A stretch of DNA of 64,000 nt from Asterella californica (taxonomy: Eukaryota; Streptophyta; Marchantiopsida; Marchantiales; Aytoniaceae). The translations under genes and the position numbers were made by a program. The stretch covers positions 1,860,001 to 1,924,000 of the forward strand of contig JAYKYS010000018.1 in NCBI GenBank assembly GCA_036924285.1. Reading direction: 5' to 3'. Below are positions 27,937 through 61,962 of this stretch, in pieces (the stretch's first letter is position 1; each line of letters starts with the position of its first letter). The notes below the pieces were generated by a model, which saw nothing but the letters and a program-made list of their open reading frames with translations, was not told the DNA's origin and made no database searches.

Positions 27937-28297
27937 CTGTCCTCATGATTCACTGATTGACAGAGAGCTGTAAAGAGAAGTTTGTCTCGGTGTTTGTTCA
28001 AATGTTTGACGGTGCGTAGTATCTTTTCGACAAGTGCAATGCCATGCAGATATGCCCATATGTAAATGCTAATCTCTAGACTTCGAATTGGGAATGGAAG
28101 CAGAACAAAAGCTTGCACTGTTCCATGACTTTCAGTACTCCTTCGATCGACTCTGTCGACCGAAGAAGTACGTTTGACCAGTAGTAGGCACGTGCACAGA
28201 GCTCATGATCATTTTCTTCTCCGTCGTCGAGCTCGCTTTCCTGAGTCCTCGATCGATGCTTTACCTGCAGAAGCATAAGCAAATTTCACTCTCGGAG

Positions 28298-28900
28298 ATG
28301 GGGAACAGCCTGCTGACATGTTACAACGGAAGAGCGAAGGTCGTGGTTATTCTGGAGGACGGTAAAGTGGAGGAGTACCTGAGACCTGTGAGAGTGGCAA
28401 CTGTGCTGCAGCAGCATCCGAAGCATATGGTGGTGAAATTGGATACTCGCTTCAGATTAGCACAACGATGGCGGAAGTTGACTTACTTGCGGCCAGAGCA
28501 AACATTGAAGTGCAAGCGAAAATACCTCGTACTGCCAAATCAATCAGCTGGCGGTAAGTTCGTTGACGGGTGGGACTTAGCGTCTAGTGCTCTGGAGTCC
28601 AGAGCGAAGCGGGCCAAGATGAGGAAACTTAAGGGGACGAAGTATGCGTCTAAGTTCTCCAGCTCTTCAGCACTAGCATTGAACTATACTGAGCAAGAGA
28701 ACTCCAGAACCTCGCTGCTTGATCTAGACTCGCAGGACCATGTTCAAGCGGTGACTGATTACTCGACTGGAACTAGTCATGATCAGGGAGTAGTACTCAG
28801 TATCCCCAAACCTCGGCATAGGGACTATGAGTGGCGACCCTCTCTTGACTCCATACCCGAAGTCAATATGACTTCGCTTGCCGTTTATGGTCCGTATTAG
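28298..28900 (+). CDS. PADRE-domain (DUF4228-type) protein
   Basis: A single-exon protein of 200 aa. I chose the ATG at 28,298 rather than the upstream in-frame one because it gives MGNSLLTC. That is an N-myristoylation motif with a nearby Cys and the standard start of this plant family. The N-terminal half (residues 1-85) has the PADRE pattern: NGRAKVVVILEDGKVEEYLRP, a central HPKHMVVKLDT, and YLRPEQTLKCKRKYLVLP. The C-terminal half is basic then Ser-rich and low in order (RAKRAKMRKLKG). In seed plants such genes respond to pathogens and abiotic stress; the biochemical role is unknown. It would sit at the plasma membrane if acylated. Length is normal for the family and no break is seen. Confidence 0.8.
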   Translation: MGNSLLTCYNGRAKVVVILEDGKVEEYLRPVRVATVLQQHPKHMVVKLDTRFRLAQRWRKLTYLRPEQTLKCKRKYLVLPNQSAGGKFVDGWDLASSALESRAKRAKMRKLKGTKYASKFSSSSALALNYTEQENSRTSLLDLDSQDHVQAVTDYSTGTSHDQGVVLSIPKPRHRDYEWRPSLDSIPEVNMTSLAVYGPY

Positions 28901-42442: not shown

Positions 42443-43826
42443 TGTCAGTGGTACTGAATATACACCAAGTTCAAGTCTCAATTTTTGAAACCTGTTTGAA
42501 GACAAAGGCTTGGTGAATATATCAGCAGTTTGATCATCAGTTGTTATCCATTAAGGAACAACCTCTCCTGAAATTATTTTCTCCCTGGTGAAGTGGACTT
42601 GCACTTCAATGTGCTTTGTTCTAGCATGGTGCACTGGGTTTTTCGCCAATGCTATTGCACTCATGCTATCAGTCCAGATTACTGTTGGAGTGTCTTCGTT
42701 GACACCTACATCCTCCTACATCCATCTTAGCCAAATGGCCTCTCGTGCTGCATTACACATGCCACGATATTCTGCTTCAGAGGAGGATAAAGCAATAGTT
42801 GACTTCTTTTTACACTGCCAAGTGATGACACCTCCTCCTAGCATAAATTCAAATCTGGACATTGATTTATGATCTGTAGAATCGCCTGCACAATCAGCAT
42901 ATGTAAACTCAACAAGTCCAAGTGACTTATCTGAGCTATATTTGAGCCCATAGCTGGTAGTTCCTCTGAGGTAGCGCAAAACTCTCTTTGCTGTCCTCAT
43001 ATGCATTATTGTGAGAGACTCCATATTTTGATTGAGTTTGCTGACTGCATACGAAATATCTGATTTTGTAGTGACAGCCAAGTAAATTAACTTCCCCATC
43101 AGCTTCCTGAACTCTGTTGCATCTGCATGCTCATCATCAACATAAGAACTTTGTCACTCTTTCGAGATAACCATAGGAGTAGGCGCAGGCTTGCACTTCT
43201 CCATCTGAAAATCCTGAAGTATACTTTCTGTGTATCTTGCTTGAGTGAGGTATAACATTTTGTTGTCTTCCAAAAACTGAACTCCAAGACAAAAGTTGAG
43301 GAGTCCAAAATCCTTCATATCAAACTCTTGCTATAAAGCTTGCTGAATCTTCTGTACTCCTCCTTGATTACTTCCGGATATTATCAAGTCATCCACGTAC
43401 AGTAACAATAACACAATACCTTGAGAAGTAATCAAAACATAGAAGTTTGGATCACCTCTAGTACGAGAGAAGCCTTGCTGTTTCAAGAAGATGTCGATTC
43501 TTGTGTACCAAGCTCTTGGAGCTTGTTTGAGACCATACAATGCCTTATGCAGCTTGCATACTAATTGTTCACCTCCTTTACGAACAAATCCAAGTGGTTG
43601 CTGCAAGTAGATATCTTCTTGAAGAATCTCATTAAGAAATGCATTCTTAACATCCATATGTAGATATTTCCAACCATGTAGTTTTGCAAGAGCACAAAGA
43701 ACTCGAATGGAGTTAAGTTTTACCACAAGTGTGAAGGTTTCTTGAAAATCTTCTCTTGCAGTCTGCAAGTAACCTTTTGCAACAAGGCGAGCCTTGTATC
43801 TCTCAATAGATCCATCCGCTATCAGA
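42443..43826 (-). pseudogene. Ty1/copia RT-RNase H, 5'-truncated
   Basis: The minus strand encodes the C-terminal part of copia pol. RT motifs are GSIERYKARLVAKGY, MDVKNAFLNE, YGLKQAPRAWY and YVDDLIISG (catalytic Asp pair). Then comes the connection (QARYTESILQDF) and RNase H with TYADCAGDST and IALSSSEAEYRG, ending close to the polypurine tract. Gag, protease, integrase and the RT N-terminus are missing. The coding part starts abruptly at the Ala-Asp-Gly of RT at about 43,826 and abuts an unrelated repeat. Several stops and two frame changes (near 43,331 and 43,100) mark it as dead. Confidence 0.9.
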
Positions 43827-44097
43827 AGCAAGCCTCTAGCTAAGCTGCCCCCTGCTGTCCTTACGTACATAACCTTAATTACTAAACCAGCTCCCTTTTT
43901 AATAAAAGCTTCACATCTGTCTTTACAAAGCCGACCCCTTCATTACTAAAGGTCTCACAGCTTTCTTTGTCATTGCTAAGCTGACTCGATGATTAATTAA
44001 CTGATTAACAAAAGTTTCTCGTGCTCTTGATGTCATCTTGATGCCATCCTGAATATACCACAAGCCATCCAATGTAGTCCGAAACCCCTACACTTAT
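43822..44097 (+). repeat. Dispersed repeat R, copy 1 (uninterrupted)
   Basis: This copy runs from ATCAGAAGCAAGCCTCTAGC through AAGCTGCCCCCTGCTGTCC and TTAATTACTAAACCAGC to CTACACTTATG. The same text occurs at 59,320-59,375 plus 61,731-61,962, where it is split by a retrotransposon. No ORF. Its class is unknown; the left edge is the copia junction, so this copy is truncated. Confidence 0.8.
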
Positions 44098-44390
44098 GAG
44101 GTTACCCCACAGGGCTTATAGCCCCCCCATATGCGCACCAGGTATCTCCCATGGTATATTCACGATGGCATGCGGAGGCTTAGGTCAAGAAGCCCACGAT
44201 TAAGAGAGATACCGGTCTCTTGTCCCTACATATGCAGGACGTGGCTGCATATCCAACATAGACTCCCTTCCAGGAGGCCAACATGTCGGAATAGGAACCA
44301 GAGGCCAGGGGGAATTGATCCTGAGACAACTTTCTCCCTAGGCAGGCGCCCTATCACTGGGATGGCCTTTGGTTCCGTTCTAAAAGCAAT
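44098..44390 (-). mobile_element. tRNA-derived SINE-like element
   Basis: On minus, the A-box-like TAGGGCGCCTGCC (44,340-44,352) and the B-box-like GGATCAATTCC (44,311-44,321) are spaced as in tRNA-derived SINEs. It sits directly against repeat R. The body is about 200 bp. Confidence 0.4.
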
Positions 44391-44915: not shown

Positions 44916-45928
44916 CTAGTCTCCATGGTTCTCTAAATTATCATAGTCCTCCTCATCGTCCTCTACGTCTTCTTTTGATACCAGATCTGCATCTGCATCC
45001 ATCATCTGATCTGACTCCAAAAATTCATTGAGCTCAATGGATTCTCCCCTTCTTCTAAACAACTTGATACGCTTACTAGCAACATGAAGTCTTAGAGGTG
45101 TACCATCGGGCTCCTGTAAAGAGTAAGTAGCATTCTGATGCACTTCTAAGACAACATATGGACCAAACCACCTCCTAGAAAATTTTTGAACCGTAGAGTG
45201 CTGATTCTCTAACATACTGTCATACACCAAAACCCAGTCTCCAACATGTATGGGCTTTGGTCTGAGCCTGTGGGTCTTGTCAAACCTGTCTTTGTTCTTG
45301 AGACGGGCCTCTTTCAGTTTCTGTTGAGCCTCTATAAGATCCTCCTCTCTATGTTCCAACTGCCTGATTCGAAGTGCAAGAAGTTGTACATGATCCATTT
45401 CGTCTTCCCACGGTAAAGTAGCTCATGTAGGAAAGTCCTTCTCTGCAGGCATAATCGATTTTTGATCCAGCATCAGTTCAATGGACATGTACCCAGTAGT
45501 AGTGCAATGAGTCAACTGTCAGCCCATAGAGCAAAAGAGAGCAACTTATGTCACTGTCTATGCCTACCATCGCATGCCTTTATCAGAGCTTGAACAATTG
45601 ACGGATGTCCTCTCTCGCTCTTATCAATCCCTTCTGGATTCATAGCAGTAGTGAGTTTGAGTTTCACTCTGTGTTGGACGAAGAACTCCTTCGCTTCCGT
45701 ACCACGCAACTCTCCTCTGTTAGCACGCAATCTCCTTATAGATCCGTACCTACAGATAATATCTTCAAGAACAAACCTACATATCCCTTCTGTGGTCTTC
45801 GTCCTCAGAGCTCGTCCTTCCACAAAGTTGGAGAGATCTTCTCGAACCAACACCAAGTACCTCATACCCCATAACCCAGGAGGCATTGCTACCAAATCAA
45901 GAACCCATTGAAAATGGATACTGGGCGG
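44916..45928 (-). pseudogene. Outer element: integrase core and C-terminal module
   Basis: The core piece (45,928-45,551) reads SIHFQWVLDLVAMPPG, RYLVLVREDLSNFVEGRAL and ICRYGSIRRLRANRGEL. The catalytic Asp of the usual ADRGE motif is replaced by Asn, and the final motif reads NPEGIDKSERGH. The C-terminal piece (45,398-44,916) has FGPYVVLEVHQNATYSLQEP, a GPY/F-type module, then an acidic tail. The region between (45,400-45,550) is out of frame. It would have inserted cDNA into chromosomes but is inactive. Confidence 0.85.
45925..45928 (+). repeat. Target duplication GCGG (left) of the solo-LTR-like unit
   Basis: GCGG precedes TGTAGTGTG and is repeated at 48,462-48,465 after ACACGACA. Both lie within the integrase reading frame of the outer element. 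Confidence 0.7.
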
Positions 45929-46620
45929 TGTAGTGTGACGTGCTTTCTTATCTGGGAATACACCGAGTATCTAGTTGTAGAGAGTACGTGTCGCGAACGA
46001 AGCGAACCAGCGACCACCCAAACCTCTCTTTGACCTCCAAGTACACTCTGAACCTATCTCGCTATGATATCCTCACGTCCTCTCGGCAGATCTCTCTCTT
46101 ACTCGACTAGGAATAGAACCGGGGTAACAAGCACGAGCAACCTGTTCCTACCATCACCGCAAGCACTCTTGGGTCTGCTGGTCATCACTCCAACCTCACC
46201 ACAAGAGAAATACCAGCACGAATAATAAAAATAATAAAAGAAATAGAAAAGAAATCTAAGCTCAACGCCCGCACACAAATCCAATCAAACCAACTGGGTG
46301 TACAAACAGTCATGCGAGTATGGAGAGGATCCAAACACAGGTAATACTGTCAACAACTCTCCATACTCACAATCAAGTGCTCTGAAGCACTAGCAAAACC
46401 TCGAGGTCGATCTGTTTTTCAAAGAATCTTTACTCTTGCGTCTTTCGGAGCAAGAACCTCTCAACTTTACCTCGCTGTCACTCTTCAACCACAACTCGGA
46501 ATGAGATGAAACCAAGGCCAGTAGATAGCCTGTAGAATAATCTCTCTATTAAGGTATTACATGCAAAGAGATCATCTCTGAGTTGGCAGCTATGCGTTTC
46601 CAAAGTTCACTCTTTCTTAT

Positions 46621-46974
46621 AACATGATATTATTTCGACAGAACTTTACTGTTCGATTCCTCACAAACCACTCGACAAAAATGGCTCAAACTTCTCAAGA
46701 AGCTAATGAGTCACCATCACTACCACTCTGTAAAGTTTCACCAGCAGATCCTCAATTGAACTCTCGAAATGATCCAAGCTCTTATCGCTGTTTTTATAAC
46801 ATGATACTATTTCGACAGAACTTTGCTGTTCGATTTCTCACAAACCACTCGACAAAAATAGCTCAAACTTCTCAGGAAACTAATGTGTCACCATCACTAC
46901 CACTCTATAAAATTTCACCAGCAAATCCTCAACCAAACTCTCGGAATGATCCAAGCTCTTTTTGTCAGTGACAC
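46621..46974 (+). repeat. 177-bp tandem duplication
   Basis: Copies at 46,621-46,797 and 46,798-46,974 both start AACATGATA.TATTTCGACAG and end GATCCAAGCTCTT. They differ by scattered substitutions. It lies inside the solo-LTR-like unit. Confidence 0.9.
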
Positions 46975-47731
46975 AAGACGATATGCAGACCCTTGTGCAC
47001 AAAAATAGCGTTTCCCTTCAACCCAATAATCCAAATGGTCTGAAATTTCACAAGTAGGTAGCTGACTGTACCTTCTCAGACCCTGGAACGTTTCACAGCG
47101 AAATTCGACCTCAAACTCTCCATATCTCTCTCAATGTCTCTTGTTTACTGTCGCCTATCATCATAGTCTCTGATTTGAGACACCCAACTTCAACTAACCA
47201 TAACTTTTCACTCCGGTTTGGAATCGATTGATCTCGGAGTCCATCAACAAGCCCATCTCAAGAGCTTTCCATCAACAGTCAATTCATCTCCAGTAACCTC
47301 ACAGAACTCCCAGAAAGTGAGAAAGTCATCACAGAAACAAAATTGGTTCTGAATTTGACCCCCTCAGCTTCAATTGATCGAAATATTCTCATCCGTGCTT
47401 CAAATCGAGCAACCATTGAGTCCACGAGCATCCTCGTCTTCCAAGCTTTTCAACCATATCTCACCCTCCGTGAATGGACTACGGGAAGTGCCTCTAACCC
47501 TCAAAAACGTGAAAGAAACTTAGTGGAAGGTGATTGGTCAAACTTTCAACCAATAAGAAACAAGTTGACAAAAGAGTTTTTGTCTGCACTCACATGACAA
47601 ACACACAAAGAACAAATTTTTATCCAAGAGTACCATTTAGGCCTCAAAGCTTATATCGAACAAACTACAAATACGTGCCATTGACTATACCGTTGGCCAC
47701 GAAGCACGTAGACACGAAAGACAAACTACGC

Positions 47732-47947
47732 TCAATATAGAGTCAAAATCTCGACTCTAAAATGGTTGACAATAAACGAGACTACAAAAGGAACGGATGA
47801 AGCTATTATCTGATTGTAATAATCCTCTCCAAAGTTACTGACGATAAACTCTCGATGCACCACCTTTGGTCGACTGTAACAACGTATTTCGACCCAGGTG
47901 TTGAACGGAACTCTTGCTGGAAAGTTCAGATCCAATGGAGGATCCAT
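47732..47947 (-). CDS. Small conserved LTR ORF b (71 aa), copy 1
   Basis: An intact ATG-to-TGA frame of exactly 71 codons, six nucleotides after ORF a. The middle reads HREFIVSNFGEDYY and the end VNHFRVEILTLY. No signal peptide or clear membrane segment, though the C-terminal half is hydrophobic. It aligns with 59,919-60,122 at about 36 of 66 positions, including RPK, NFG, IAS, FVV, FIV and ILTLY. That copy has an internal stop. The family is unknown to me. It also resembles ORF a around FG-[DE]-[DE]-[FY] and the hydrophobic end, so the two may be an old tandem duplicate. Conservation between otherwise diverged LTRs suggests past selection on the protein. Confidence 0.55.
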   Translation of the reverse strand: MDPPLDLNFPARVPFNTWVEIRCYSRPKVVHREFIVSNFGEDYYNQIIASSVPFVVSFIVNHFRVEILTLY

Positions 47948-47953
47948 ACCACA

Positions 47954-48169
47954 TCAGAGCAAGATGTAGACAGTAAGATCCCAAACAGCGTCGTAAGTGA
48001 CAATGAGAAGAATGATAGGATTCGGAGTAGCCATCATCGCAGTCATAAACGACTCTCCTCAATGAGATATCATAAATACTCGAAAATGATCCCACGGCAG
48101 ACAATGGATCTTAATGACGAATGAATGTGCAAGTGGAAGATCAGGAGCACGCAAAGACTCTCCGTTCAT
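47954..48169 (-). pseudogene. Small conserved LTR ORF a (71 codons), copy 1, one stop
   Basis: The frame from ATG at 48,169 to TGA at 47,954 has 71 codons, broken only by a TGA at codon 37 (48,059-48,061). It starts MNGESLRAPDLPLAHSF and ends VWDLTVYILL. It aligns without gaps to the intact frame at 59,697-59,912 (about 31 of 71 identical). It lies about 110 bp after a TATA box, so it would be the first ORF of an LTR-driven transcript, followed by ORF b. Confidence 0.55.
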
Positions 48170-48271
48170 ACCTACCACTCGCACTGCCGCTTACTTCATC
48201 CGATGATATTGATCACACTCACACTAAGCTTGAATACTCCACACCCTATATCCCAAGCTCCGCGCACCTCT

Positions 48272-48281
48272 CTTCTTATAC
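48272..48281 (-). promoter_or_regulatory. TATA box of the LTR ORF pair, copy 1
   Basis: The minus strand reads TGTATAAGAA about 110 bp before ORF a. The second copy has GTATAAAATGG at the same distance. Confidence 0.5.
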
Positions 48282-48465
48282 ATCAACCTCGCATGTGACG
48301 ACAAGAGTACTATCCTTATCCTCACTCAGTGAAGAGTACACGGATCGTCCATGTGGAGCTTTATCTTTTGACACGATAAGGTCCCAATGGTTCCTCAACA
48401 CCAAACATGTACGATAAAGATATGTGGTGGTTTCACACCCTAGCCAATCCACAACACGACAGCGG

Positions 48466-48867
48466 TTAGGTTGGTACCGGACCATCCCTGTAACGTACCT
48501 TTGAATAAAATTGACAGTGCAAGCATGAATTCACAAAGTTCACCACATCTTGATAAAGTCCTCTCCACCAGTATCTCTCCTTCAACTTTGTATAGGTAGC
48601 CCAAGCTCCTCGATGTCCGACCCACAAGGTGTCATGAAACTCCTTCATCAACTGTTGCTTGGTCTGCAAATAATCTATAACTCGCAAAAGTGCTCCATCT
48701 CTTCTCTTTAGACGCTTCCAAAGATATCCATCTCGCAACAAGTAATCATATGCCTTCCTTCTTATCTCTCTGAACTCTGCATCACTTAAACTCTCCCGCC
48801 TGTTTAAGGAACTCAGAAAGAACCCAATGTTACGTAACCTTCCCGTGTAGAGCTCCTCTCTGAACGG
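48466..48867 (-). pseudogene. Outer element: integrase zinc-binding domain
   Basis: The minus frame reads SLNRRESLSDAEFREIRRKAY, DGYLWKRLKRRDG, then the HHCC zinc site: EFHDTLWVGHRGAW and NSCLHCQFYSKV. It is cut on both sides: by the gag-only insert at 48,867 and by the solo-LTR-like unit at 48,466. The frame is open across this piece. Confidence 0.88.
48864..48867 (+). repeat. Target duplication ACGG of the gag-only element
   Basis: ACGG precedes TGTCGTGTCGG and recurs at 54,039-54,042 after CACGACA, in the outer element's pol. Confidence 0.75.
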
Positions 48868-50883
48868 TGTCGTGTCGGATTTGGCGTGAAGGATGTCCAA
48901 GAAAACACGAGGTTCCTGGCTGTGGAGATGTTGTGTGCTGAAACAGAGACAAGACAGAGAAAAACAACCACCAAAATGAATGCTGCGATATATACCAACT
49001 CCAAATGTATGTACACTGCCGGTTCTTTCTCCTAAGAGCACATAACTGAAAAACAGACCAGAGCGGTCTGTAACATGCTTCAAAGCCCTTAAAAACAACC
49101 CCTGATTCTCAACCCTGATCCAAAAACACCAAAACGTAGCTCAAAGCAAGAGAAACTTCTTTTGCTAACAAGCAGAGCCACAGCAGTATCACGCGATCTA
49201 AACTCAAGTTCAAACCACATCCATGTACAAGTTCTTAGCTAAAGCTAGCTACCACAAGCTGTATATAGCCAACCAGAACTCTAATGAACTGAAAAGAGCA
49301 AAACTCATAGCGAAGAAACTGAAAAAGACCTATCTGTGGACTTTCTCCTATGGAGTGTCGATAGGGTCTCCTCCGCTGACTCCGTTAACCCAAGAAACCT
49401 TCAAATCCGACTCCCAACAGTCGAGATATCGCCAATTTTCGGTCGCAGGTGATCGAACCTTCAAAAACTCCTCCCCGCGGCTTAAAACCGCACACACCGC
49501 ACAAACGGATCGTCTAAACTGATATCCGTCTTCTCTGACAGATAGATCTAGCTATCCTGAACCCAACGAGACTCCAAACAAGTCGTCTGGAGTTCCCCTT
49601 GCAAAATCACGCAAGAAATTTAGTCGCAGGTTGCAAAAAACTGACGTAAATGGACTCCCTCCGGCTCAAACTCGCTCACCTCACCCAAACCAACAATCCA
49701 ATCCACGTATTGTCTTCTCCTAGGCGTAGATGAAGACTTCCTGGTCGCATAGGCACCAAGAACGAAGAGCTTGGCACATCGATCGCAAAAAACAACCCAA
49801 TTTTAGATCGTAGGCGATGAAAAACCTGACGCAAGCGCTTCCCTGCGAGCCAATTTCACTCAGAACTCCTAAACCGTCCGATGAAACTTGGTATCGTCTT
49901 CAATTTCCTGTAGAACTCGGTGTTCTGATCCCGATGGATCCAAGGACAGCAAGTTTAGACTCTGGAACGGCGCGAACGGTCCAACTCTCCTTCACAGATA
50001 ATTGAAATCTTCAAATCTCCTTCCTACGTCTCAATTTCTCTCAGTACACATCCTCCGACCCATCTCTTCAAGAACCATCTTAACCTACACGTAGCCTGCA
50101 CAGATTTGAACCCAACGACGCCTTGCGCGTTTGCATTGGACCTCCAAATCTCCCGCATCGTCCGTTGACAAGTCGCAGATACAAGCAAGCCCCTTAAGTA
50201 GCCCCCTTGTATGAGTCTCTGTACGTACGAAGTTCTCTCCATAATAATGAAGCAGGTCCTTTGCGTCTTTGATATAACGCCTAAAGTCTCAAATACCCAC
50301 TCAGCAAGTAACTAGGGTCTAGCTTGATTTTGCCTTCTTTCGAATCGCATAACTTCTTCACTAGATGTCCAAACGAAGTAAACAAGATGCCCATGGAAAG
50401 CTGACAACAAGCTCTACCCGTCTATGTGATGAAAGTGAAGATCCGAAGTTGTGCCAAAAGCCCGTAAGCTGAGGTCTAGCTTGTTTTCTCCATCTTTTGA
50501 ATCTTGTAACTTCTCCACTAGACGTCCAAACGAAGTAGATGAAGTGCCTATGGAGTGTTGACAAAGAGCTCTATCCACTGATGCGATGAAAGCGAAAATC
50601 CAAAGTTGTGCCAAAAGTCCATAAGCTAGGACCTAGCTTGTTTTCTCCATCTTTCGAGTCTTGTAACTTCTCCACTAGGCGTCCAAACGAAGTAGACAAA
50701 GTGTCTATGGAGTGTTGACAAAGAGCTCTATCTACTGTCGCGATGAAAGCGAAAATCCGAAGTTGTGCCAAAAGCCCGTAAGCTGGGGCCTAGCTTGCTT
50801 TTCTCACTTTCCTTCATGAGCGTCTTTGAAGCAATAAGCATCAAAATTTGAATTTCAGATAGGAGCCGGTCCACGACACGACA
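48868..50883 (-). repeat. 3' LTR (2,016 bp) of the gag-only element
   Basis: It is bounded by TGTCGTG and CACGACA. It shares about 0.5 kb at the left and 0.2 kb at the right with 53,331-54,038. The intervening ~1.3 kb, including the 157-bp repeats, is absent from the other LTR. Confidence 0.85.
50317..50795 (+). repeat. 157-bp tandem repeat, three copies plus a partial
   Basis: Units begin at 50,317, 50,474, 50,631 and (partial) 50,788, each starting near CTAGCTTG and containing CGTCCAAACGAAGTAGA. It lies within the long LTR only. The short LTR keeps one partial unit. Confidence 0.92.
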
Positions 50884-51571
50884 TCCACCCCCTCCAAACT
50901 TGTGCATCCTCCGGTATGCACCAGAGATACCAACCAAGGAGTGGACCGGCACGCACACTCGTTCTCATGTTGTCATCCTCCCTCCCATTTCAATCAACCT
51001 CATCCTCAAGTCTGCAACTTGATCGCCATCTTGAAATTGCAACTTGGTCATGATCCCCCTTAGATTCATGCTCATCGCATCTCTCCTCCAACCTATCATC
51101 CAATCACCCTCTCTAAATCTACACATCTTTCAATATGCGAAAACATAGAAAGAATAACCCATCATACCATAGAAATATCTTCCATCCGTCTTGTAGAACC
51201 TCACCGTAGAGATTTGTGATCCAAATGTCATAGTAGACATCATCCATCCTCCCAATCATCACCGCATATTCTGACAATAACCCTCAATCTCAAGTATGTA
51301 CGTTTCATCGTATGTATCCAACTCTTCTTTTTTGTTTTCAAAAATGAACCACACTGCTGCAACCAAAATCCTCAATCGCAACCGTCATTGTCTCGCTGTA
51401 CAATGATATCTTCTTCAACCATCATCCTCTCTATACAATGGTATCTTCTTCAACCGTCATCCTATCTGATCTCTTCTTCTGAAAATCTTTACAACCTTCC
51501 AAACATCATTCTCTCAACCCAAATCACCTTCAGCAATGGCTTCTCCCTTGTATCCCTGCCATCTTTACCCA

Positions 51572-53000
51572 TCATCTTATATCCGCAGCCTTGAAACCAT
51601 CTGTCCACTCTCGTTCACCCTCAACAGGTCGTTTGTCCTTGATGATGTCAATGTTGACATCATGGACTTCTCTTGTAGCTGCACCTAAGACCTCCCGTGA
51701 AATGAACCCAACCTTTGCATCTCGAATGCACTCCTCCCAACCCCCCTTCACATCCATCATTGTATCAATAACTGGTTGTTGTATGTTTGCAACCAGATCA
51801 ACCATGTCCACTGTCTGCACCCCAACCATTTCCTCCGGTTGTGAAGGATCGTCCTCCATTGCTTGTTCAGGAAGAACAGTTTCTTGTTGAATCTTATCCT
51901 CCCCAACTTGCTTCTCTGAAGAGGTCTCTTCTTGTCCCTTCTTCTCGCTCTGCATCGTGGATGCAGTATTAAACTTGAGCTCGCTTGGATCCACATGCTC
52001 ATTCGAATCATCCATATGGAGATCATGCTCAATCTCCTCCACCCTAGCACCATAACTTGTAGATTCGTCTTGCTATAAGTGCATGTGCCGTAAGGTAATC
52101 ATCCACAAACTTCTTCATCCTCCTTTATCAACGTTGGCTTGAAGGAGAGTACCCGAACTTCTGAATGCAACTTTTCCATCCTCCCAAAAAATAACCTCAC
52201 GTTGCAAAGACTCTGCAAAGTCGATGCAATCGTCTCGTTGATGATCAGTACCATCACACCACACGCACTGATGTACCCAAGTTGGTCCGGATACAAGCAC
52301 CGTCTTGGTCGTCGATCCCTTACTCTCCAACCTAGTAACCTTAGCTTGTAGATCTCGCATCTTTTGCTGTAGGTCTTCGATGGTTGGATCTTTCTCCCCT
52401 ACAATCATAATTGGAGGTTGAACCTCAGATACTACTCGAACTGATGTAGTCAGCGATGCAGATGTCAACCTTGCAACTCTTTCCCTTGTATGTCTCCAGA
52501 CAAGAAGCTCAACCGCTTCATGCACAACCTCTCAATTCCTTGTCAGCCCTTCTTCTTCCTCCCCATCCTCCAAAAGTAGCTCCAACCGCTCTTGCCATGG
52601 TTCATCAGCAGCTTGAAGAAACAACTCTGTCTTGTACGTCTCCAAGGTTAGCTTGTCCACCCGAGATAGTTGAGAGAACTGTCTCTCAAACTCCTTTAAC
52701 ATCTCTATAGGCTGTAAACCCTTGCTAGGTTTATTGACTCATTCCAAAAATGATTTTCTTGTTACTCGATCTGAGTTTCCCAAGAATATTCTTCCACCAA
52801 CGCATGTGAAAATGTATCCCAGTTTCTCCTAAAATGCTTTGTTAGACCTTTCACATGCTCCCTTATCTCAAGCACCGCAGCGAAAGTCTCGATCATCTCC
52901 TTCTCCGATACCTGATCCAAATCCATCTCCGTCTTGTAACATCTCAAGTACTTTGAGATGTCTTCTCCATCAAACAGATCGAGCTTGTCGATCATCCTTC
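51572..53000 (-). pseudogene. Gag of the non-autonomous element
   Basis: The minus frames give a capsid-like region (52,995-52,762: FDGEDISKYLRCYKTEMDL, LTKHFRRNWDTF), then a zinc knuckle in 52,525-52,115 (CVWCDGTDHQRDDC). A long acidic stretch follows in the same frame (52,042-51,572), ending GFISREVLGAATREVHD. The first piece is in another frame, and a stop lies at 52,115. The gag would form particles carrying element RNA. It ends at the polypurine side without any protease. Confidence 0.75.
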
Positions 53001-53307
53001 GAAGCGCCTTCGTCCCAAAGTCTCCTTTTGTTGGTTCCCTTGCTCTTGTCCCAAAAACAAAGTGAAGGCTTCAAACAAACGTGCAGTGTGCTGCATCCAA
53101 CTGCACCCCTAGTATCCTCTCCGATCCATCCATCTCGTCCATAGTCATGGCTCGTCTTATCCTCCCATGCTCCCATGATCCCAACCGTCTACAAATCCAT
53201 CATCCCAGGTCCGCAACATCCTCCCGAACAACAGTATCCATCCTCATCCTCGTTCATGATTGTTGATCTCCTCTTCCAGTTCAAACACAAAAATCTCCAT
53301 CCCAGAC

Positions 53308-53326
53308 CTTCACGTCGAGTTCACCA
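53308..53326 (-). promoter_or_regulatory. Primer-binding site of the gag-only element
   Basis: On minus, TGGTGAACTCGACG starts four bases after the 5' LTR end. The outer element has a similar TGGTG-type start at the same place. I could not assign the tRNA. Confidence 0.4.
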
Positions 53327-53330
53327 TCGA

Positions 53331-54038
53331 TGTCGTGTCGGATTTTGCGTGAAAGATGTCTAGGAAAACGCAAGGTTCTGATTGTGGAGATGTTGTGTGC
53401 TGAAACAGAGACAAGACAGAAAAAAATAACCACGAAAACGAACGATGCGATATATACCCACTCCAAATGTATGTACACTGCCGGTTCTTTCTCCTAAGAG
53501 CACAAAACTGAAAAACAGAACAGAGCGGTCTGTAATCTGCTTCAAAGCCCTTAAAAAAACCTTTGATTCTCAACCCTGACCTAAAAACACCGAAGCGTAG
53601 CTCAAAGTAAGAGAAACTTCTCTTTGCTAACAAGCAGAGCCACAGCAGTATCATGCGATCTAAACTCAAGTCCAAACCACATCCATGTACAAGTTCTTAG
53701 CTAAAGCTAGCTACCACAAGCTGTATATAGCCAACCAGAACTCTAATGAACTGAAAAGAGCAAAATCCGTAGCGAAGAAACCAAAAAACGTCTATCTGTG
53801 GACTTCCTCCTTTCGCCGAACGGACTTCAGATGGCGTCCAAACGAAGTAGACAAAGTGTCTATGGAGTGTTGACAAAGAGCTCTATCCACTGATGCGATG
53901 AAAGCAAAAATCCGAAGTTGTGCCAAAAGCCCGTAAGCTGGGGCCTAGCTTGCTTTTCTCACTTTCTTCCATGAGCGTCTTTGGAGCGATAAGCATCAAA
54001 ATTTGAATTTCATATAGAAGCCGGTCCACGACACGACA
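53331..54038 (-). repeat. 5' LTR (708 bp) of the gag-only element, internally deleted
   Basis: The ends match the other LTR. The jump relative to it occurs near 53,830, where sequence similar to about 49,350 passes directly into a unit of the 157-bp repeat. Confidence 0.85.
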
Positions 54039-54075
54039 ACGGCTCCAAGTCCGTAGCCCGTTGATTAACTTGACA

Positions 54076-54551
54076 CTAAGTATCCTTTCTCTCCTCTTCC
54101 TCAGCTTCTGAAAACATGACATCCTCATCTACAAATCGAGCCTTTGACAACATATATGCGACCACATTCTCCTTTTCTTTTATATGCTTCAGCTCTGGAT
54201 TCAAGCTTCTAATATAGGCAATCCAATGTAACATTGCTATGTATGGCGTGTTGCAGTTGGATATCATGCCTAGTAGAGATAGACAATCCGTTTCTAAGAC
54301 TACATGAGCACCAATCAGAAACTCACGGTCTGTCTTCATCGCTGTCACTGCTCTCCACAACTCACCTGAGGATAGTCTCGTTGCCTGTCTGTCAAGATCT
54401 TAGCTCCAAACATAGAGATAAACCGTATATCATCCGCATCATCTTGACCTATTATCCAGCCAATCGTCTTTGGACTAGTATCTACCGTGACAATGACAGA
54501 TCTCTCACACCCATAGTCTACTCTTCTCTCTTGCTCCTTCAGTCTATTCAT
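54076..54551 (-). pseudogene. Outer element: RNase H
   Basis: Two frames on minus: VDYGCERSVIVTVDTSPKTIGW (first catalytic Asp region) and LIGAHVVLETDCLSLLGMIS with LHWIAYIRSLNPELKHIKEK. This is the Ty3-type RNase H that removes RNA from the hybrid. It is frameshifted near 54,355 and cut at 54,042 by the gag-only insert. Confidence 0.82.
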
Positions 54552-54707
54552 AGCTTCTCGATGGACTGAGGTTCATATAAACCTCCTACCCTTCCTCAGT
54601 AATGCATATAAAGGCTCAGCAACATGAGCATAATGAGGAATGGATAAATAAAATACACAAGCACTTAGAAAGCGTCGAACCTCCGTATATTCTTACAGTC
54701 TGTCATC

Positions 54708-55543
54708 CTACCTATGGCTTCGACCTTCTCCGAGTTTGATCGTCTTATGCATCGCATTCTGCATATGAGTCACCGAGTTCGTCGCTCCTTGTGGAAGAGT
54801 ACACATCCGCATCGATCCCAAGGGCGTACGCATAGTAGTTAGATCTCCACTCTCTACAGCCAGCTGGAACTGATCATAACCAGAATATAGATCTCCTATT
54901 GAATAGATAGCTCTCCCTGCAAATGCCTCCGCTACCTCCTCAATCACATGACCCGTCCCAACGTTACGAATGATTACGTTATTCGCAGGCTATAGGTCTT
55001 GAATAAAACGCAAAGCTCCTGACTTCTTGGGTACAGTGAACCACTTGCTAGAATACGGCTCCATAGACGGCTCAAGTATCCCCATCTGTACCTTCTCTTT
55101 CAACAACTCGATGAGTTTAGGCAACAAAGCATGAGGAACTGGCATCGATTTCAAGTTCCAAGGCACATGAGGGATTGTGAATATAACCATAAGCGCTATA
55201 ATTTTTGGGTCCACACAACCTATTTCCTCTGCTGAAAATGAGAATGCTTTACCATGATCCATTATCATCTGCTCAAACACCGTCTTCTCAACCTCAGTCA
55301 AGAAATCACCCCTCCTATCTGGAGCTCTTTCAACGTCTCCTCAGTAAACTGATGTCCTACTCGTCTATGATCACGTAATATAGACTCAGTCCTCACTAAT
55401 TGTACTTGCTGCTGGGAGTTAGCAGGTAGTTGAGTTGCTACCGGTCTCACTTTTTTCAATACAGATTTGTATTTCGCATGGGCGTCTGCTTCCTGAGGGA
55501 GTGCACACCAACAAACGGCTTCTCTTCCCTCACTATTATGCAT
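54708..55543 (-). pseudogene. Outer element: reverse transcriptase, catalytic centre lost
   Basis: RT motifs on minus are LLKEKVQMGILEPSMEPYSS, WFTVPKKSGALRFIQDL, IYSIGDLYSGYDQFQL and RTPLGSMRMCTLPQGATNSV. The expected xxDD catalytic motif just downstream is absent: the sequence jumps to RRFLSACVFYLSIPHY-type connection text near 54,700. The first part (55,543-55,298) is in a different frame. It cannot synthesise DNA. Confidence 0.85.
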
Positions 55544-56302
55544 CAGATGAGGAAAGAACTACACATACCTAACAACCTCCTCATATATGCATCGAGAGTG
55601 GATAGAGATCACCGTCATACTATCTTTCCTTTCCATCAATCTATTCACACTGTCCAACCAACCAACAACTGACTGTACAGACATAAACTCTTCAAACAAG
55701 CCAGAAACCACTTCGTCTTCCGACAGAACCCTTACACGCCACAACTCTGATATCTGTTTCACCATCCATTTTTTTGTATTTTCTCCCATATCTTCAACTC
55801 TTGTAAATCGACTCCACCCATCTGCCTCAAACATCAGCAATCCAGATTGCCAACTCTGTACACTACACCTGTCTCCAGACCTTTGTACATGTCTCGCTTC
55901 CAACTCTGACGGGATCTCAACAGTAGGTTCTACACCCCTATCTTCCCGCTCTACAGGAGTGGATTGCGAAAACCCTTACATCTCTTCGTCTGAGAATCTT
56001 TAAGGGTTTGTCGGTTCCGTTCATGTCTTGAACGAACCGTCAAAAACTGTACTGAATATCTGTCATCAGGACTCCAAACTCTGACATAATGAGACCCAAT
56101 CGTTCATCACCTTTGTCTCTATTCGAACAGCGGTGATGTATGGTTGACCATGACAAGAGGAGGCAGACGATTGTACAAAGAAATGCTGATCAACCTCTAC
56201 ATCTCCAATCCTTACACGTATATTGGGACAAGCTCCGTATAACTCACCCTTTTGATTATTTGCAGCACGAAGTACCCAACCATGATTTCTTTCGATTGGT
56301 CA

Positions 56303-56728
56303 CTACCCCTTCTCATACACCTCCTTGGAAATGATGTTAATCTCCGATCCGTGATCCACAAGTGCAGGTACTGGTTTAGAAAGTCCTCCAAGCCGAACCT
56401 GCGTCTCTATTGTCGCTCTTGTCCAGTGCTTCTCTTTGAAATCGCTGTCTGCGCTTGACCTATCCTCTTCAAACTCTTCGTCTTCATTCTCAATAACAGT
56501 TAGACCAGCAACCCATGCCTCATACTTATCATCTTTGAACTGATCAACACCAATAGCATCTACTGCTCCAACCATCTGACTACTTACTTGTCCAGTCAAT
56601 ACTTGTCTCTTTCTCTTCATGATGTCTATTATCAACTCATGAAATTGTCTCTTTGCGATACCAAGCACTTCACGAAAAGTAAACTCAACTCTAGCATCCA
56701 AAACTTGCATGCTGCTCCAGAACAGCAT
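56303..56728 (-). pseudogene. Outer element: protease
   Basis: The frame reads VLDARVEFTFREVLGIAKRQ, an acidic linker, and PVPALVDHGSEINIIS, where DHGS replaces the common DTG/DSG of aspartic proteases. It is separated from gag by a frame change caused by a 22-bp hairpin insertion at 56,705-56,732. Confidence 0.75.
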
Positions 56729-58538
56729 GCAAGTTTGTTGTTGTTTCGATGTCTGCCGCTAACTTGTAAGCTGGAGCTTTCTCCTTCTCCTGTGCTATAA
56801 ACCTCTTTTCCCGTACTCTATCTGTAGCAGTAGTCTCTTGTGACAAATCATGTACACCTTCCATATGATCTACTGCAGGTGGTGGAGCTGTAGAGATAGA
56901 AGGTATATCCTCTGTAGTAGGAAATCTACCAACTGGTACAAATGGTGATGGTTCCGCTGCTCTCCTCCTTGTAACCCTCCGACGGTCACTGTCCTCTGGT
57001 ACTCTTGCATCTAAATCAGAAGCATCCTGTCTTCTTTTGTCTTCGATCATGGCATCTTGTTCACCACTCGTCTCCAAAAACGCTCGAATAGAAGTTGCAT
57101 CTACTGGGTCTCTCCATCCAGTACCTCTCCTAATGCTTTCAACACCTCTCTTCATCATTTCAACTGGAACCTCAACAGTCTGCTCAACCATAGTTGGATT
57201 AGAGCACACCTCAACTCTCTCAGTATATACATCAACCTCCGCAGAACCTGCAGTCATCGCTGTAGTGTTTGCACCAGTAAGTGCTGGAAGAGAACTCCTC
57301 ATTCCTCCTCTTCCAAAATATGTGTTTAGAGGCTGCCTAGTGGCGGTTAGATACAACTTATTATTCTGATAGTTGACTACGTCCTCTCGCAAGGCAACCG
57401 CTAAGTCTTGACAATCTCCTCTGAGATGATCTGAGCTATCACACCAAATACATCTCTTGGTAAAGGTTCCTCCTACAGGTCGAGCACCTGGTGCAACGAG
57501 TCGTGGGTCTCTCCTTAAATCTGCCATCTCAACTCTCAAATCTCTCAACTGTTGAGTGAGCTCTTCAATCAGGTTATGTTGATTTCGGTTCTCAACAGGT
57601 CGTTGCTGCTGTCTAGGTCTTCTCTGTGCTGGGATAGGTACTGCAGGCGCTTGAGGAACCACTTGAGGAACCACTATATGTGCTTGGAGAATCACAATAG
57701 GTGCCTGAGGTATTATAGGAGGAGCTACAGGAACCTAAGGAGCTACTCTATGCTCTAGCAAGGTCTCTAGCTGCAGTACCATCCTACCACGACGTTGTCT
57801 AGCAAGGGTGGATACTGCTTCCTCCACTCTCCTCCAATCAGATGTAACTCCCCCTTCAGCTCCACGATCAGCCAACATAAAACAAAGTCTGTCCGCTGTG
57901 AACTCATCCAGAGCCCCTAAGAACAACTCCGTCTTCCTAGCATCCAACGTCAACCTCTCTAGACTAGAAAGCTGAGAGTACCTCTTCTCAAACTCACGAA
58001 TTATTTCATTCAATCCCAGGGAACGTCCAAGCTGACGCTCTATCCAGTCCATGAGGGTTCTTCTGATGACTCTTTCATAATCCTCTCCTAGAAACTCTTC
58101 TCTCAGTGCACGTTCAAACAGAGTCCACCCACCTAAATGTATTCTCTATAAATTTCTCACCTTCTCTCTCAGTTCAGGGACAATAGTCAACTCAAAGCTT
58201 AGAATTACCTCAACTTCATATGCCCTGACCAACTCCATCTCACCCACATACTCTCGCAAGTACCTAGTAACATCTCTTTCATCAAATCGCTCACATCTAC
58301 TCACAATTGCTTGTAACGCCTTTGTGGATTTCTCCTCAGCTCTCTCAATTGCACGCTGCTGCTGAATCAAGGCAACCAATGCTTGAAGAATCTGAGAGGT
58401 GTCTACGGCAGGCTGTGCTGCTGCTGTTGGAACCACCGTAGGTCCTCCTTGAGAGCCAATTCCATCCTGACCAAGAGTCTCTTGGATAGGAGCACCTTGA
58501 GCAGCAGCCACACCCTGTACAGCAGCACTGTGATCCAT
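56691..58538 (-). pseudogene. Outer element: gag
   Basis: One minus frame runs 58,538-56,691 with only two in-frame TAG stops (58,146-58,148 and 57,735-57,737). In order it has an Ala/Gln-rich start (MDHSAAVQGVAAAQG), a capsid region (VTRYLREYVGEMELV, FLGALDEFTADRLCFM), a Pro-rich spacer, and a zinc knuckle (CIWCDSSDHLRGDC). An Arg/Glu-rich region follows, and the frame ends after ETTTNL because of the hairpin insertion. Without that insertion it would be fused to protease, as in related elements. Confidence 0.85.
56701..56736. repeat. 14-bp perfect hairpin at the gag/protease break
   Basis: AAACTTGCATGCTG (56,701-56,714) and CAGCATGCAAGTTT (56,723-56,736) flank an 8-nt loop. Confidence 0.95.
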
Positions 58539-58582
58539 TTTCCATCCAATCTAGTCAATTCTCTAAATCAATCACCCCAATA

Positions 58583-58601
58583 GCTCTCAGTGGAAGCACC
58601 A
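58583..58601 (-). promoter_or_regulatory. Primer-binding site of the outer element
   Basis: On minus, TGGTGCTTCCACTGAGAGC begins two bases after the LTR end (GCGACA at 58,604). The matching tRNA was not identified. Confidence 0.5.
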
Positions 58602-58603
58602 GA

Positions 58604-59282
58604 TGTCGCGGCGAGAGTCTTTCTTGGAGAGGACGGACCTCTTGACTGTGATCGATCAAAGAAACGACCAAAAAAAAAACAGGTTGCTGTTGATGATGAG
58701 ATCTCAAAACCCTACTTCTTGCCGTCACCAATTACAAGACAAACACTCAAACAGACACCCAGCAGACACTCAGGCACACAGATAGATCTTTCAGGATTCA
58801 GAATAACTTTATTTCAGTGCCGACTGCACCATCAATTTCTTCAACTGTAAAGAAAATCTCTCTCTCTTCTTCTCTTGTACGTCTCTTTTTTCAAGTTCAT
58901 CTCAATCTCAATCTATTAGGTGAAATTCAGGCCCTTGACTCTTATTCTTCTCCTTGCGTCAACCTCCCAACTGAAAACTCCCAGAAATTTGATTCAAAAA
59001 CGATCAAAAACCTCTCACAGATCATCAACCCGGTCTCCGCTCAATAGACTGTCTCCTGTTCGTTTTGAGGGTAGCTCTGCCTCCAATCTGTATATTTGAT
59101 AAAGTTTTTGCTCCTAAACTCTTGTCTATCCCTTTGCGTCGATCTCCTCACTGAATTCTCTCAGAAATTTCATCTCCTCAACCCCCAAGCTTCTCCTGCG
59201 CGTCTCGACCGTTCTCCTTCTGCTCTTTGTAAAAAGTTCCCTATCTCACGCGGCCGCATGTTAATTAACCTAAAAGGTAAGT
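58604..59282 (-). repeat. 5' LTR (part) of the outer element
   Basis: The LTR ends GCGACA at 58,604 in the minus sense. Two diverged copies of an ~180-bp module are visible (about 58,935 and 59,113, both with TTGCGTC.A.CTCC and CAGAAATTT). The other edge is lost where repeat R begins near 59,283. Confidence 0.5.
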
Positions 59283-59375
59283 CCTCAGCTAAGCTGCCCC
59301 CCTGCTGTCCTTATAAGCAGAACTACTTATCAGAAGCAGACCTCTAGCTAAGCTGCCCCCTTGTTGTCCTTACGT
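59283..59375 (+). repeat. Dispersed repeat R, copy 2, left part
   Basis: CAGCTAAGCTGCCCCC.TG.TGTCC occurs twice here (59,287 and 59,347, about 60 bp apart). The second instance continues to TTACGT, matching copy 1 at 43,822-43,866. The repeat is broken at 59,375 by the second solo-LTR-like unit and resumes at about 61,731. Confidence 0.75.
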
Positions 59376-59587
59376 TGTCGTGTTGTGGTTCGACTCTTGT
59401 GTGAAATTCTCGTAGAACGTAAGTTGTGTTTTTTTCTGTGTTTCGTGAATCGTATCGCGTAACTCTCCGAACGGTGTGATGGGTGCCACGTTTGTGATTA
59501 TCTATTTAAGTGATCATACGGTAGAGAAACGTGCCAAGTCATCGATCTATGCACGTTCACTTTAGTTGTCCTTATCGCCGCATTTGT

Positions 59588-59598
59588 GTATAAAATGG
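59588..59598 (+). promoter_or_regulatory. TATA box of the LTR ORF pair, copy 2
   Basis: GTATAAAATGG lies 108 bp before the ATG of ORF a, the same distance as in copy 1. Confidence 0.6.
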
Positions 59599-59696
59599 TG
59601 CGTCGATGGTTCATAGGACATTCTCTCTCAACGCGTGATTTGTGAGGGTGCTCGGAGATCTGCATGGAGAAGTGAAGAACTGCAAGCGTGGTGGTT

Positions 59697-59912
59697 ATGG
59701 ACGGAGGTGTGATACCGGCTCCGGATCTTCCTTTCTCGAATCTGTTTCACATCAAGCTTCATTACATCCATCGCAACCACTTTCGACAGTGGTTAGTTGC
59801 GTACTTTGGTGATGAATTCGTGGGGAGGGTGATGGAGTTACAGCTTCCTGTGATCCTTCCGATCGTTACAAACAGAGAGACTTGGGATATGACGGTGTAC
59901 ATCTTATTGTGA
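59697..59912 (+). CDS. Small conserved LTR ORF a (71 aa), copy 2, intact
   Basis: An ATG-to-TGA frame of 71 codons, starting MDGGVIPAPDLPFSNLF and ending ETWDMTVYILL. The centre is RQWLVAYFGDEFVGR. It aligns gap-free with 48,169-47,954. Conserved positions include APDLP, the HFR triplet, P.IL.IVT and WD.TVYILL. The first ATG of this frame at 59,697 is used, not the upstream GTG. No transmembrane or signal segment is obvious. ORF b follows after six bases, so both could be read from one LTR transcript. I do not know the family; a fold made mostly of strands is possible from the alternating hydrophobic pattern. Confidence 0.55.
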   Translation: MDGGVIPAPDLPFSNLFHIKLHYIHRNHFRQWLVAYFGDEFVGRVMELQLPVILPIVTNRETWDMTVYILL

Positions 59913-59918
59913 GGAACA

Positions 59919-60122
59919 ATGGATCTCAATTACTCATCGAATGTTTTTTTCAACCTTTGGGTCGATGTCTAGTGTCATTGCAGACCGAAGATCAATCATG
60001 GAGCTTGGATCGTGAGAAACTTCGGACAAGAATATTTCAACCGAGTGATAGCTTCACCGTTTTCTTTTGTCGTACCTTTTATTGTAAGTCGTTTCCAAGT
60101 TGTAATATTGACTTTGTATTAG
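59919..60122 (+). pseudogene. Small conserved LTR ORF b, copy 2, one stop
   Basis: The ATG lies six nucleotides after ORF a. 67 codons reach TAG at 60,120-60,122, interrupted by a TAG at 59,970-59,972 (codon 18). It keeps WIVRNFGQEYFNRVIAS, FVVPFIVSRF and ILTLY, matching copy 1. It is four residues shorter near the start. Confidence 0.5.
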
Positions 60123-61730
60123 TCTGTGACTCAATCGTTCCATTCTCATTGAGTGCTTTTGTGTAGTTACGGATCGCAAAGAATCCGTCGACATATCTGA
60201 AAGATTTTCTGAGGTCTTAGAGTCTTGTTGATATCTTGTGTCTCCTTGGGAGTGAAAATTTGTCCTAGGGGAAAAAGTTGAGTGAAAAAAGACAAAAGTA
60301 AAGCTCTTTTTGCTCTTATTGGTTTATTTTTGAACCATTGGTGTTCTAGCTTATCCTCGCAACGTTTTTGTGGTTTTTGGAGGCTTCGGAGAGCCATTCG
60401 CAAAACGAAGGGTATGGTTGGAGAGCTCTTGACCGGGGCTACAATCTGAGCTGAAGAATCGTTCGATTTGATGGAAAAATGAGAGCGTTATGATCGATTG
60501 AGTGAAAGAAGATATAATTCGTATCTACTGCTACGTTTCTGGTTGTTTCAAGAGACTCATGAGGAGTTTTGAGGAGCTGTCTGTTGGGTTGGAGAGCTGA
60601 CGATGTGCTGGTCGTTTTGATATCAATTTCATCAGGTTCTTGATCGATTTGGATTCTGAACCGACCGATTGAAGTTGAGAAGTGTAGACGTGATAAGACG
60701 AGAACAGCGAACTATAATAGTCATGGATAGTTTGCTATTGTTTAACTTCTGAGTCGAATTGCTGAGTGAAACTTTCCAGGATTGAAGCATGTCTTATCAG
60801 TAAGATACTTGGGAAGTTTCACTTCAGATGGTCGAGTAGTTTGTTTAGAATCTTGGATCAAATGTACCTGGGTCTGTAAAGCTCTTAAGTTAACACAGAT
60901 TACGGTTTGATCCATATCTGAAATCCATAAAAAATTGATTTAAGATTTCGACCTGAAAATTGTTCAGGCTAGGAGTGAAGGGTCCAATCAAGCTTCCTGT
61001 GAAGTTTGATCATCATTGGTCGATTGGTTTGAGAGGACTGAGGTCTCAAAATTCAAAAATACTTCTGTTATTAGCAGTTTTGGATTTTTTGGTATCATCT
61101 AATGTCATTTTTGTCATTTTCGAGCAATTTGGAGAGGAGTTAGTGCTGAAACTGTCATGCCTGCATACAACTCGACAATGGAGGGTGTGAGGTTGATTTC
61201 ATCTCTTGGTGATGAAGGAGAACAGAGTCGTCATGAATCTTAAGCCGTTGTTTGGGTTCTCGGAGCTGCCAAGTATTACCGCCGTTGGTGCTATATTGAG
61301 ATCTGAGTTGTGTCTTGGAACATGCATGCTTTACCTTGCTGGAATGCTTGGTAGGCCAAGGTGTACAACAAGTTATATCGAGACTCGGTCAAGTTGGTTG
61401 AGCGATCCTATAGTATCTTTCAATTGTATCAAATAGAATTGTGACGACCAAACTGATGGGTAGTTAGCGTCGCTGAGAGTACTTAAATCATGCTTCTAGT
61501 GATTTAGAGTCAAGATTTGTATGTAACACAAATTTGTATAACTTATACGTATCGTGAGACCGTAGCAACTTTTAACTTTGAGTCGAGAGATACAAGATCA
61601 CTTGTCCGAGAAGAGTAGATAGAGAGCATTAAGATTGAAAGATCAAGGTTCAAAGCCAACCTGTTCAAGTCACCTATCTCTACACAACCATATACCCCGT
61701 GTATTCTTAGACAGAAAAACATGTTATACG

Positions 61731-61962
61731 ATAACATACAAAATCTTAATTACTAAACTAGCTCCCTTTTTAATAAAAGATTCACATCTGCTTTTTACAA
61801 AGCAGACCTTTCATTACTAAAGATCTTATAGCTTTTTTTGTAATTGCTAAGTTGATTCGATGATTAATTAATTGATTAACAAAAAATTTCTCTGCTCTTG
61901 ATGTCATCTTGAATATACCACAAGCTATCCAATGTAGACAAAAGCCTCTACACTTATGGTGC
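61731..61962 (+). repeat. Dispersed repeat R, copy 2, right part
   Basis: It resumes at AACATACAAAATCTTAATTACT and matches 43,867-44,097 through CTCTTGATGTCATCTTG to CTACACTTATG. With the left part it forms one repeat R split by the solo-LTR-like unit. Confidence 0.8.

Follow-up and report, generated by a model that had tools for sequence, protein, structure and literature searches.

Two units within a 64,000-nt stretch of the Asterella californica genome (contig JAYKYS010000018.1, positions 1,860,001–1,924,000; C81:1860001-1924000 in our numbering and referred to below, at its whole length, as the window) are solo long terminal repeats (LTRs) of two sister Ty3/gypsy families, P and M. The long LTRs of these families contain two short open reading frames (ORFs), a and b, which occur in at least five families. 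Their length, frame and pattern of sequence change indicate that a and b are, very probably, real and conserved protein genes encoded by the LTR. The searches on which this rests covered 516.7 Mb in 773 contigs.

ORF pairs and solo LTRs in the window

The units lie on opposite strands (Table 1). Upon re-reading both of them, the order a then b and the 6-nt gap between the two ORFs were found as originally predicted, and so were the lengths, three ORFs having 71 codons and the fourth 67. Each unit combines one open ORF with one that is interrupted by a single stop codon, these being b in the plus unit and a in the minus unit. When the units were compared by tblastn within the window, the two a sequences showed 43.7% identity over 71 residues (31/71; E 4e-16) and the two b sequences 53.7% over 67 (36/67; E 5e-21), in agreement with the identities counted by hand (31/71 and 36/66). 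Cross matches between a and b were weak (E 0.005–0.04). No third ORF pair emerged when the window, translated in all six frames, was searched with a profile. The pair is far beyond what chance would give, because all 150 scored genome matches to protein a (the best 150 of 6968 first-look candidates) were full length and 148 of them lacked stop codons.

Each unit consists of one LTR flanked by a target-site duplication (TSD) and has no internal region. Its status as a solo LTR, initially proposed from the sequence of the window, is borne out by the LTR ends and the TSDs and, for the plus unit, by an empty-site paralogue. The location first given for the units was right; their extent was not, as the LTRs reach beyond the ORF pairs to the limits listed in Table 1. 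The M solo LTR has inserted into a different Ty3 element and splits its integrase: residues 707–845 of pol precede the LTR and 841–1144 follow it.

Table 1. Features of the two LTR units in the window (positions count from the first nucleotide of the window).
Feature	Position	Strand	Remarks
Solo LTR, family P (plus unit)	59376-61733	+	2358 bp; holds a and b; end-to-end alignment with the 2405-bp LTR of the full-length element, 85.6%
Left TSD ACGT of P unit	59372-59375		right copy ACAT at 61734-61737
Empty-site paralogue of P insertion site	43820-44098		joined flanks match at 84.6%
TATA box, plus unit	59589-59595	+	108 nt before a
Mini-upstream ORF, plus unit	59664-59675	+	3 codons; 33 nt before a
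ORF a, plus unit	59697-59912	+	71 codons, open
ORF b, plus unit	59919-60122	+	67 codons, one internal stop
Solo LTR, family M (minus unit)	45929-48461	-	2533 bp; TG...CA; holds a and b
TSD CCGC of M unit	48462-48465		other copy 45925-45928
TATA box, minus unit	48274-48280	-	111 nt before a
Mini-upstream ORF, minus unit	48191-48199	-	2 codons; 30 nt before a
ORF a, minus unit	47954-48169	-	71 codons, one internal stop
ORF b, minus unit	47732-47947	-	71 codons, open

The sequence around the units has features of its own. Window positions 45024–58545 (minus strand) hold an older related Ty3 element, with gag and pol fragments 32–70% identical to family P; it is broken by the M solo LTR and apparently by more repeats at about 49–54 kb. 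The repeat at 43820–44098 recurs around the P solo LTR and could belong to the own LTR of that older element. Inside the M LTR, at 46614–46960, there is a tandem duplication of about 170 bp (91% identical), which is present in other M copies as well. An open frame at 28178–28897 (plus strand), with a full-length match to the PADRE domain (E 9e-25), is apparently a host gene, and its domain points to a land plant.

Full-length element

A complete element with two ORF-bearing LTRs, a search for which was proposed with the original prediction, was found at C313:9628139-9638954 (10.8 kb; TSD ACGG). This is a natural copy whose two 2405-bp LTRs are 99.875% identical, each with both ORFs open. Its gag-like frame is open over 803 codons and contains DUF4100, a CCHC knuckle and a DHGS motif; its pol frame, open over 1176 codons, encodes reverse transcriptase, RNase H and integrase, which follow each other in this order (Pfam RVT_1 at 284-457, RNase H at 523-652 and Integrase_H2C2 at 776-829). 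Further marks of Ty3/gypsy elements are LTRs bounded by TG...TA in P and TG...CA in M, TSDs of 4 bp and a purine-rich tract before the 3′ LTR. In family M, pol and the purine tract precede the LTR in four of 30 loci (L046, L054, L060 and L066).

The usual protease motif is D-[ST]-G. The likely protease site of these elements is D-H-G-S, located in the gag frame and not in pol (about residue 669 in the L039 element; 56303–56728 on the minus strand of the window).

Families and copies across the genome

DNA matches were full length in all 40 scored for family P (the best 40 of 2267 first-look candidates) and in all 40 scored for family M (the best 40 of 1270). Further families were sought with a 20-base pattern covering the end of a (W-D-x-T-V-Y-I), written with threonine codons other than those used by the P and M units. 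This codon-restricted pattern occurs at 616 places and its reversed control at none. Several sequence types were present among the pattern matches listed (about the first 100). Both ORFs were open at three of the six places sampled, which represent families Q (L075), R (L076) and S (L077), and also at L080, a close relative of Q; L079 has a open and b broken, and L078 is broken in both.

Same-strand P copies are mostly about 8.4 kb apart, at times in rows of three. Q-type matches often lie about 8.29 kb apart among the places listed, and the best 40 scored matches of S include four same-strand pairs at 8.05–8.08 kb. Because this spacing resembles that of LTR pairs, Q and S are taken to be LTR-borne as well. 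The location in an LTR holds for P and M by sequence and for Q and S by spacing.

Same-strand rows that resemble tandem LTR-retrotransposon arrays were also seen: four Q-type matches every 8.29 kb (C1:46239801-46264683), three P matches every 8.41 kb (C207:38466163-38482979) and, at C145:89665-153970, six P matches spaced by 8.4 and then by about 13.9–14.0 kb. Tandem structures of LTR retrotransposons in plants, like the rows found here, are described in PMC11899658.

Length and reading frame of a and b

Judged from one natural copy per family, a has 71 codons in all five, and b has 67 codons in P, Q, R and S and 71 in M. From the stop codon of a to the start codon of b there are 6 nt in P, M and S, 9 nt in Q and 5 nt in R; a and b share a frame in all of these families except R. 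The two ORFs might be halves of a single protein of about 145 residues, produced by stop read-through or splicing. Such a protein would be allowed by the shared frame and the 6- or 9-nt spacing in four families, and the homology of a and b described below would suit a tandem-domain protein. We nevertheless consider it improbable. In R, and likewise in the decayed copies L078 and L079, b lies in another frame; b has its own ATG a few nt past the stop of a in each of the five representatives; and that stop is kept, as TGA, in 34/35 P and 29/29 M loci. Since b of R lies in the other frame, a and b are better regarded as two ORFs, with no conserved read-through product.

Selection on the ORFs

Evolution of a and b between families is that of proteins. 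For a, 770 intact P–M pairs gave mean proportions of synonymous and non-synonymous differences (pS/pN) of 0.716/0.302; for b, the means over 702 intact pairs were 0.682/0.223. One P place is counted twice among these pairs, and the P copy of the window is included for a. When the frame was shifted (first 15 × 15 loci), the values became 0.312/0.431 and 0.335/0.407 for a, and 0.379/0.342 (+1, a slight excess) and 0.245/0.365 for b; three of the four shifted frames are without synonymous excess and none is comparable to the true frames. With one copy from each of the five families, third-position differences were in excess in all 20 between-family comparisons (p 2e-3 to 1e-9), tests which share descent and hence are not independent. 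When 34 P loci were compared with a single reference copy, divergence at third positions of a and b (5.0–5.4%) was as high as in the flanks (4.2–5.7%), and codon positions 1 and 2 were less diverged (0.9–2.7%). The ratio of non-synonymous to synonymous diversity within families (piN/piS) is 0.173 for a of P and 0.182 for b of M.

The LTR around the ORFs is more diverged, as had been noticed in the window: an alignment of the P LTR to two M copies, L052 and L058, has one block of 65% identity over the ORFs and elsewhere only short islands. Neither a missing synonymous excess nor an equal DNA identity outside the ORFs was observed, and the substitution pattern points clearly to purifying selection on both a and b.

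The same region might instead be conserved as a regulatory RNA or DNA element (an enhancer, a packaging signal or a structured leader) in which the frames are open by chance. The leader of an LTR is the normal place of packaging and translation signals, and no part of the LTR is better conserved between P and M than the ORF block. This explanation is highly improbable and is largely refuted by the codon-position data, namely the third-position excess in the frames of a and b in every comparison and its lack of a comparable counterpart in the other frames. The length of a, constant to the codon in five families, likewise speaks against it.

For the reading of a and b as protein genes, pol provides a yardstick. 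The ratio of non-synonymous to synonymous divergence (dN/dS) between P and M copies is 0.20 for a (dS 1.75) and 0.11 for b (dS 2.26), and the end of pol, compared between P and three M loci, gives a dS of 1.8–2.1 and a dN of 0.10–0.11, all P–M dS values being near saturation. By this measure, the age of a and b appears similar to that of pol in P and M elements; both are constrained, yet their protein change is 2–4 times faster than that of the pol end. These divergences indicate that a and b are inherited alongside pol, as tested for P and M.

Relationship and origin of a and b

Comparison of the a and b profiles gave an hhalign probability of 96.7 (E 3e-10). The models of both proteins share a predicted beta-alpha-alpha-beta-beta topology, on models built from two-row alignments of a with b, only the best of five being fair (predicted local distance difference test scores of 81 and 72.5). 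Profiles and topology together strengthen the old duplication first suspected from a shared core, and indicate that a and b are homologous and arose by duplication.

The family could not be recognised in the original prediction, nor was it here. With six members each of a and b, no Pfam family scored above its curated cut-off and none at E ≤ 10, a search that bears on homology to sag or nef without a direct comparison with them; and the model of a had no structural match in PDB or BFVD. As to origin, the pair could be host genes captured by the element that do what a host protein would do, for instance bind a host factor involved in silencing or transcription. Such a capture is compatible with LTR-encoded genes under selection. 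The dissimilarity of a and b to the gag and pol of the element suggests an outside origin, and retroviruses offer precedents for accessory genes in LTRs. We hold it to be rather unlikely, with no host homologue found among the best 40–150 scored genome matches, a narrow search.

Predicted expression

The TATA box expected about 110 bp before a was read in both units (Table 1). The motif TATAA[AG]A occurs 90–130 nt before a in 30/35 other P loci, and a TATA box is present in that range in 27/29 other M loci. A mini-upstream ORF (mini-uORF) lies between the TATA box and a, with 3 codons at the same place in 32/35 other P loci; all 29 other M loci have one of 2 codons, again 30 nt upstream of a. 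In the single R copy a start-stop pair overlaps the start of a, and the single copy of S has a uORF of 2 codons 3 nt before a; a mini-ORF of 1–3 codons thus stands ahead of a in four of the five families.

On an RNA started from the LTR TATA box, the first ORFs would be the mini-uORF, a and b, placed in R/U5 of the 5′ LTR. Translation of a would follow that of the mini-uORF, and b would be translated by termination-reinitiation across the gap of 5–9 nt. A solo LTR could still express both. We predict such an LTR-initiated bicistronic RNA from the arrangement of the motifs, and give the model an even chance of being right.

Intactness of the copies and points against the reading

Counted without the window copies and one place that was fetched twice (35 P and 29 M loci), a is intact in 33/35 P loci, b in 26/35 and both in 25/35; the M figures are 22/29, 26/29 and 20/29. 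In the seven P loci chosen by DNA, a is intact in six and b in four. With both ORFs intact in many copies and a protein-like evolution, the pair was presumably functional in the source element, as had been proposed. A stop at codon 37 of a recurs in 8/30 M loci, the window copy included, which may reflect a mutational hotspot or the spread of one stop-bearing lineage.

Several points weigh against a and b being conserved and expressed genes of the LTR, the way in which the structure models were built among them. The count for a in P is biased, as 28 of the 35 loci were picked by similarity to protein a. Copies are not independent, since the spacing of several P loci (L005/L006, L014/L017, L018/L019 and L020/L021) identifies them as LTR pairs of single elements. 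Within-family piN/piS is weak in two of the four sets (0.589 for b of P and 0.543 for a of M); this is presumably due to broken copies such as the frameshifted L011, and is not itself proof. Families Q, R and S are represented by one copy each, the LTR context being shown for P, M, Q and S. No mini-uORF is found in the 44 nt seen before a of family Q. From 30 nt past the TATA box to the first ATG of gag there are 2219 nt with 33 ATGs. Given so long and ATG-rich a leader, the RNA for gag is probably spliced or started at another promoter, in which case a and b might be absent from it.

Comparison with known systems

Genes within LTRs outside gag–pol were called unusual in the original prediction. 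PMC2664473 describes LTR-borne ORFs in retroviruses (nef of primate lentiviruses, sag of mouse mammary tumour virus (MMTV) and long ORFs in HML LTRs), nef and sag lying within the 5′ third of the LTR, while for plant elements none was found reported. No plant LTR-encoded gene turned up in the open-licence literature searched, and PMC7466625, on Physcomitrium patens elements, does not mention an ORF, a long LTR, an RLG1 LTR or gag.

The ORFs a and b are like MMTV sag, lentiviral nef and the HML ORFs in being protein genes inside the LTR and outside gag-pol-env. They differ from sag and nef in their position after the TATA box, in being a pair of short paralogues and in their carriers, which are plant Ty3 elements. 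The place of sag and nef is U3, at the RNA's 3′ end. Judged by the TATA motif, an ORF in U3 upstream of the TATA box is not what the window units have, a starting 108 or 111 nt downstream of that motif.

Athila-like elements with env, Ogre and Grande are plant LTR retrotransposons with extra ORFs between the LTRs, which are lost from solo LTRs. They likewise have extra ORFs of unassigned function in plant Ty3 elements; a and b differ in sitting within the LTR and persisting in solo LTRs. Caulimoviruses have a polycistronic leader with short uORFs and reinitiation. The families described here share with them a short uORF followed by closely spaced ORFs at the presumed 5′ end of the RNA; they differ in that no homologous proteins were found and that the translation mechanism of a and b is inferred here. 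VANC proteins of VANDAL elements are anti-silencing proteins encoded by an internal gene of a DNA transposon. VANC serves as a conceptual analogue only, as a transposon-encoded anti-silencing factor acting in trans.

Function and significance

The two proteins, of about 8 kDa each, would probably form a pair and serve the element as trans-acting accessory factors. A part in helping the element escape silencing, or in controlling transcription or translation of the LTR, is a guess, and an unlikely one taken by itself; our best guess disfavours a structural or enzymatic role. More tentatively than the existence of the genes, we suggest that the LTR may be a mobile bicistronic cassette, made up of a promoter, a mini-uORF and two paralogues predicted to form a heterodimer of a new fold family, and dispersed as hundreds of potentially expressed copies acting in trans on element expression or silencing. 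Genes placed in the LTR would be present in two copies per element, survive solo-LTR formation and spread throughout the genome.

LTRs are normally regarded as non-coding control DNA and solo LTRs as dead remains. If the reading proposed here is true, solo LTRs would be potential genes, and annotation pipelines that mask LTRs would conceal a large family of proteins. Experiments could then address a pair of accessory proteins that perhaps influence silencing or LTR-driven expression.

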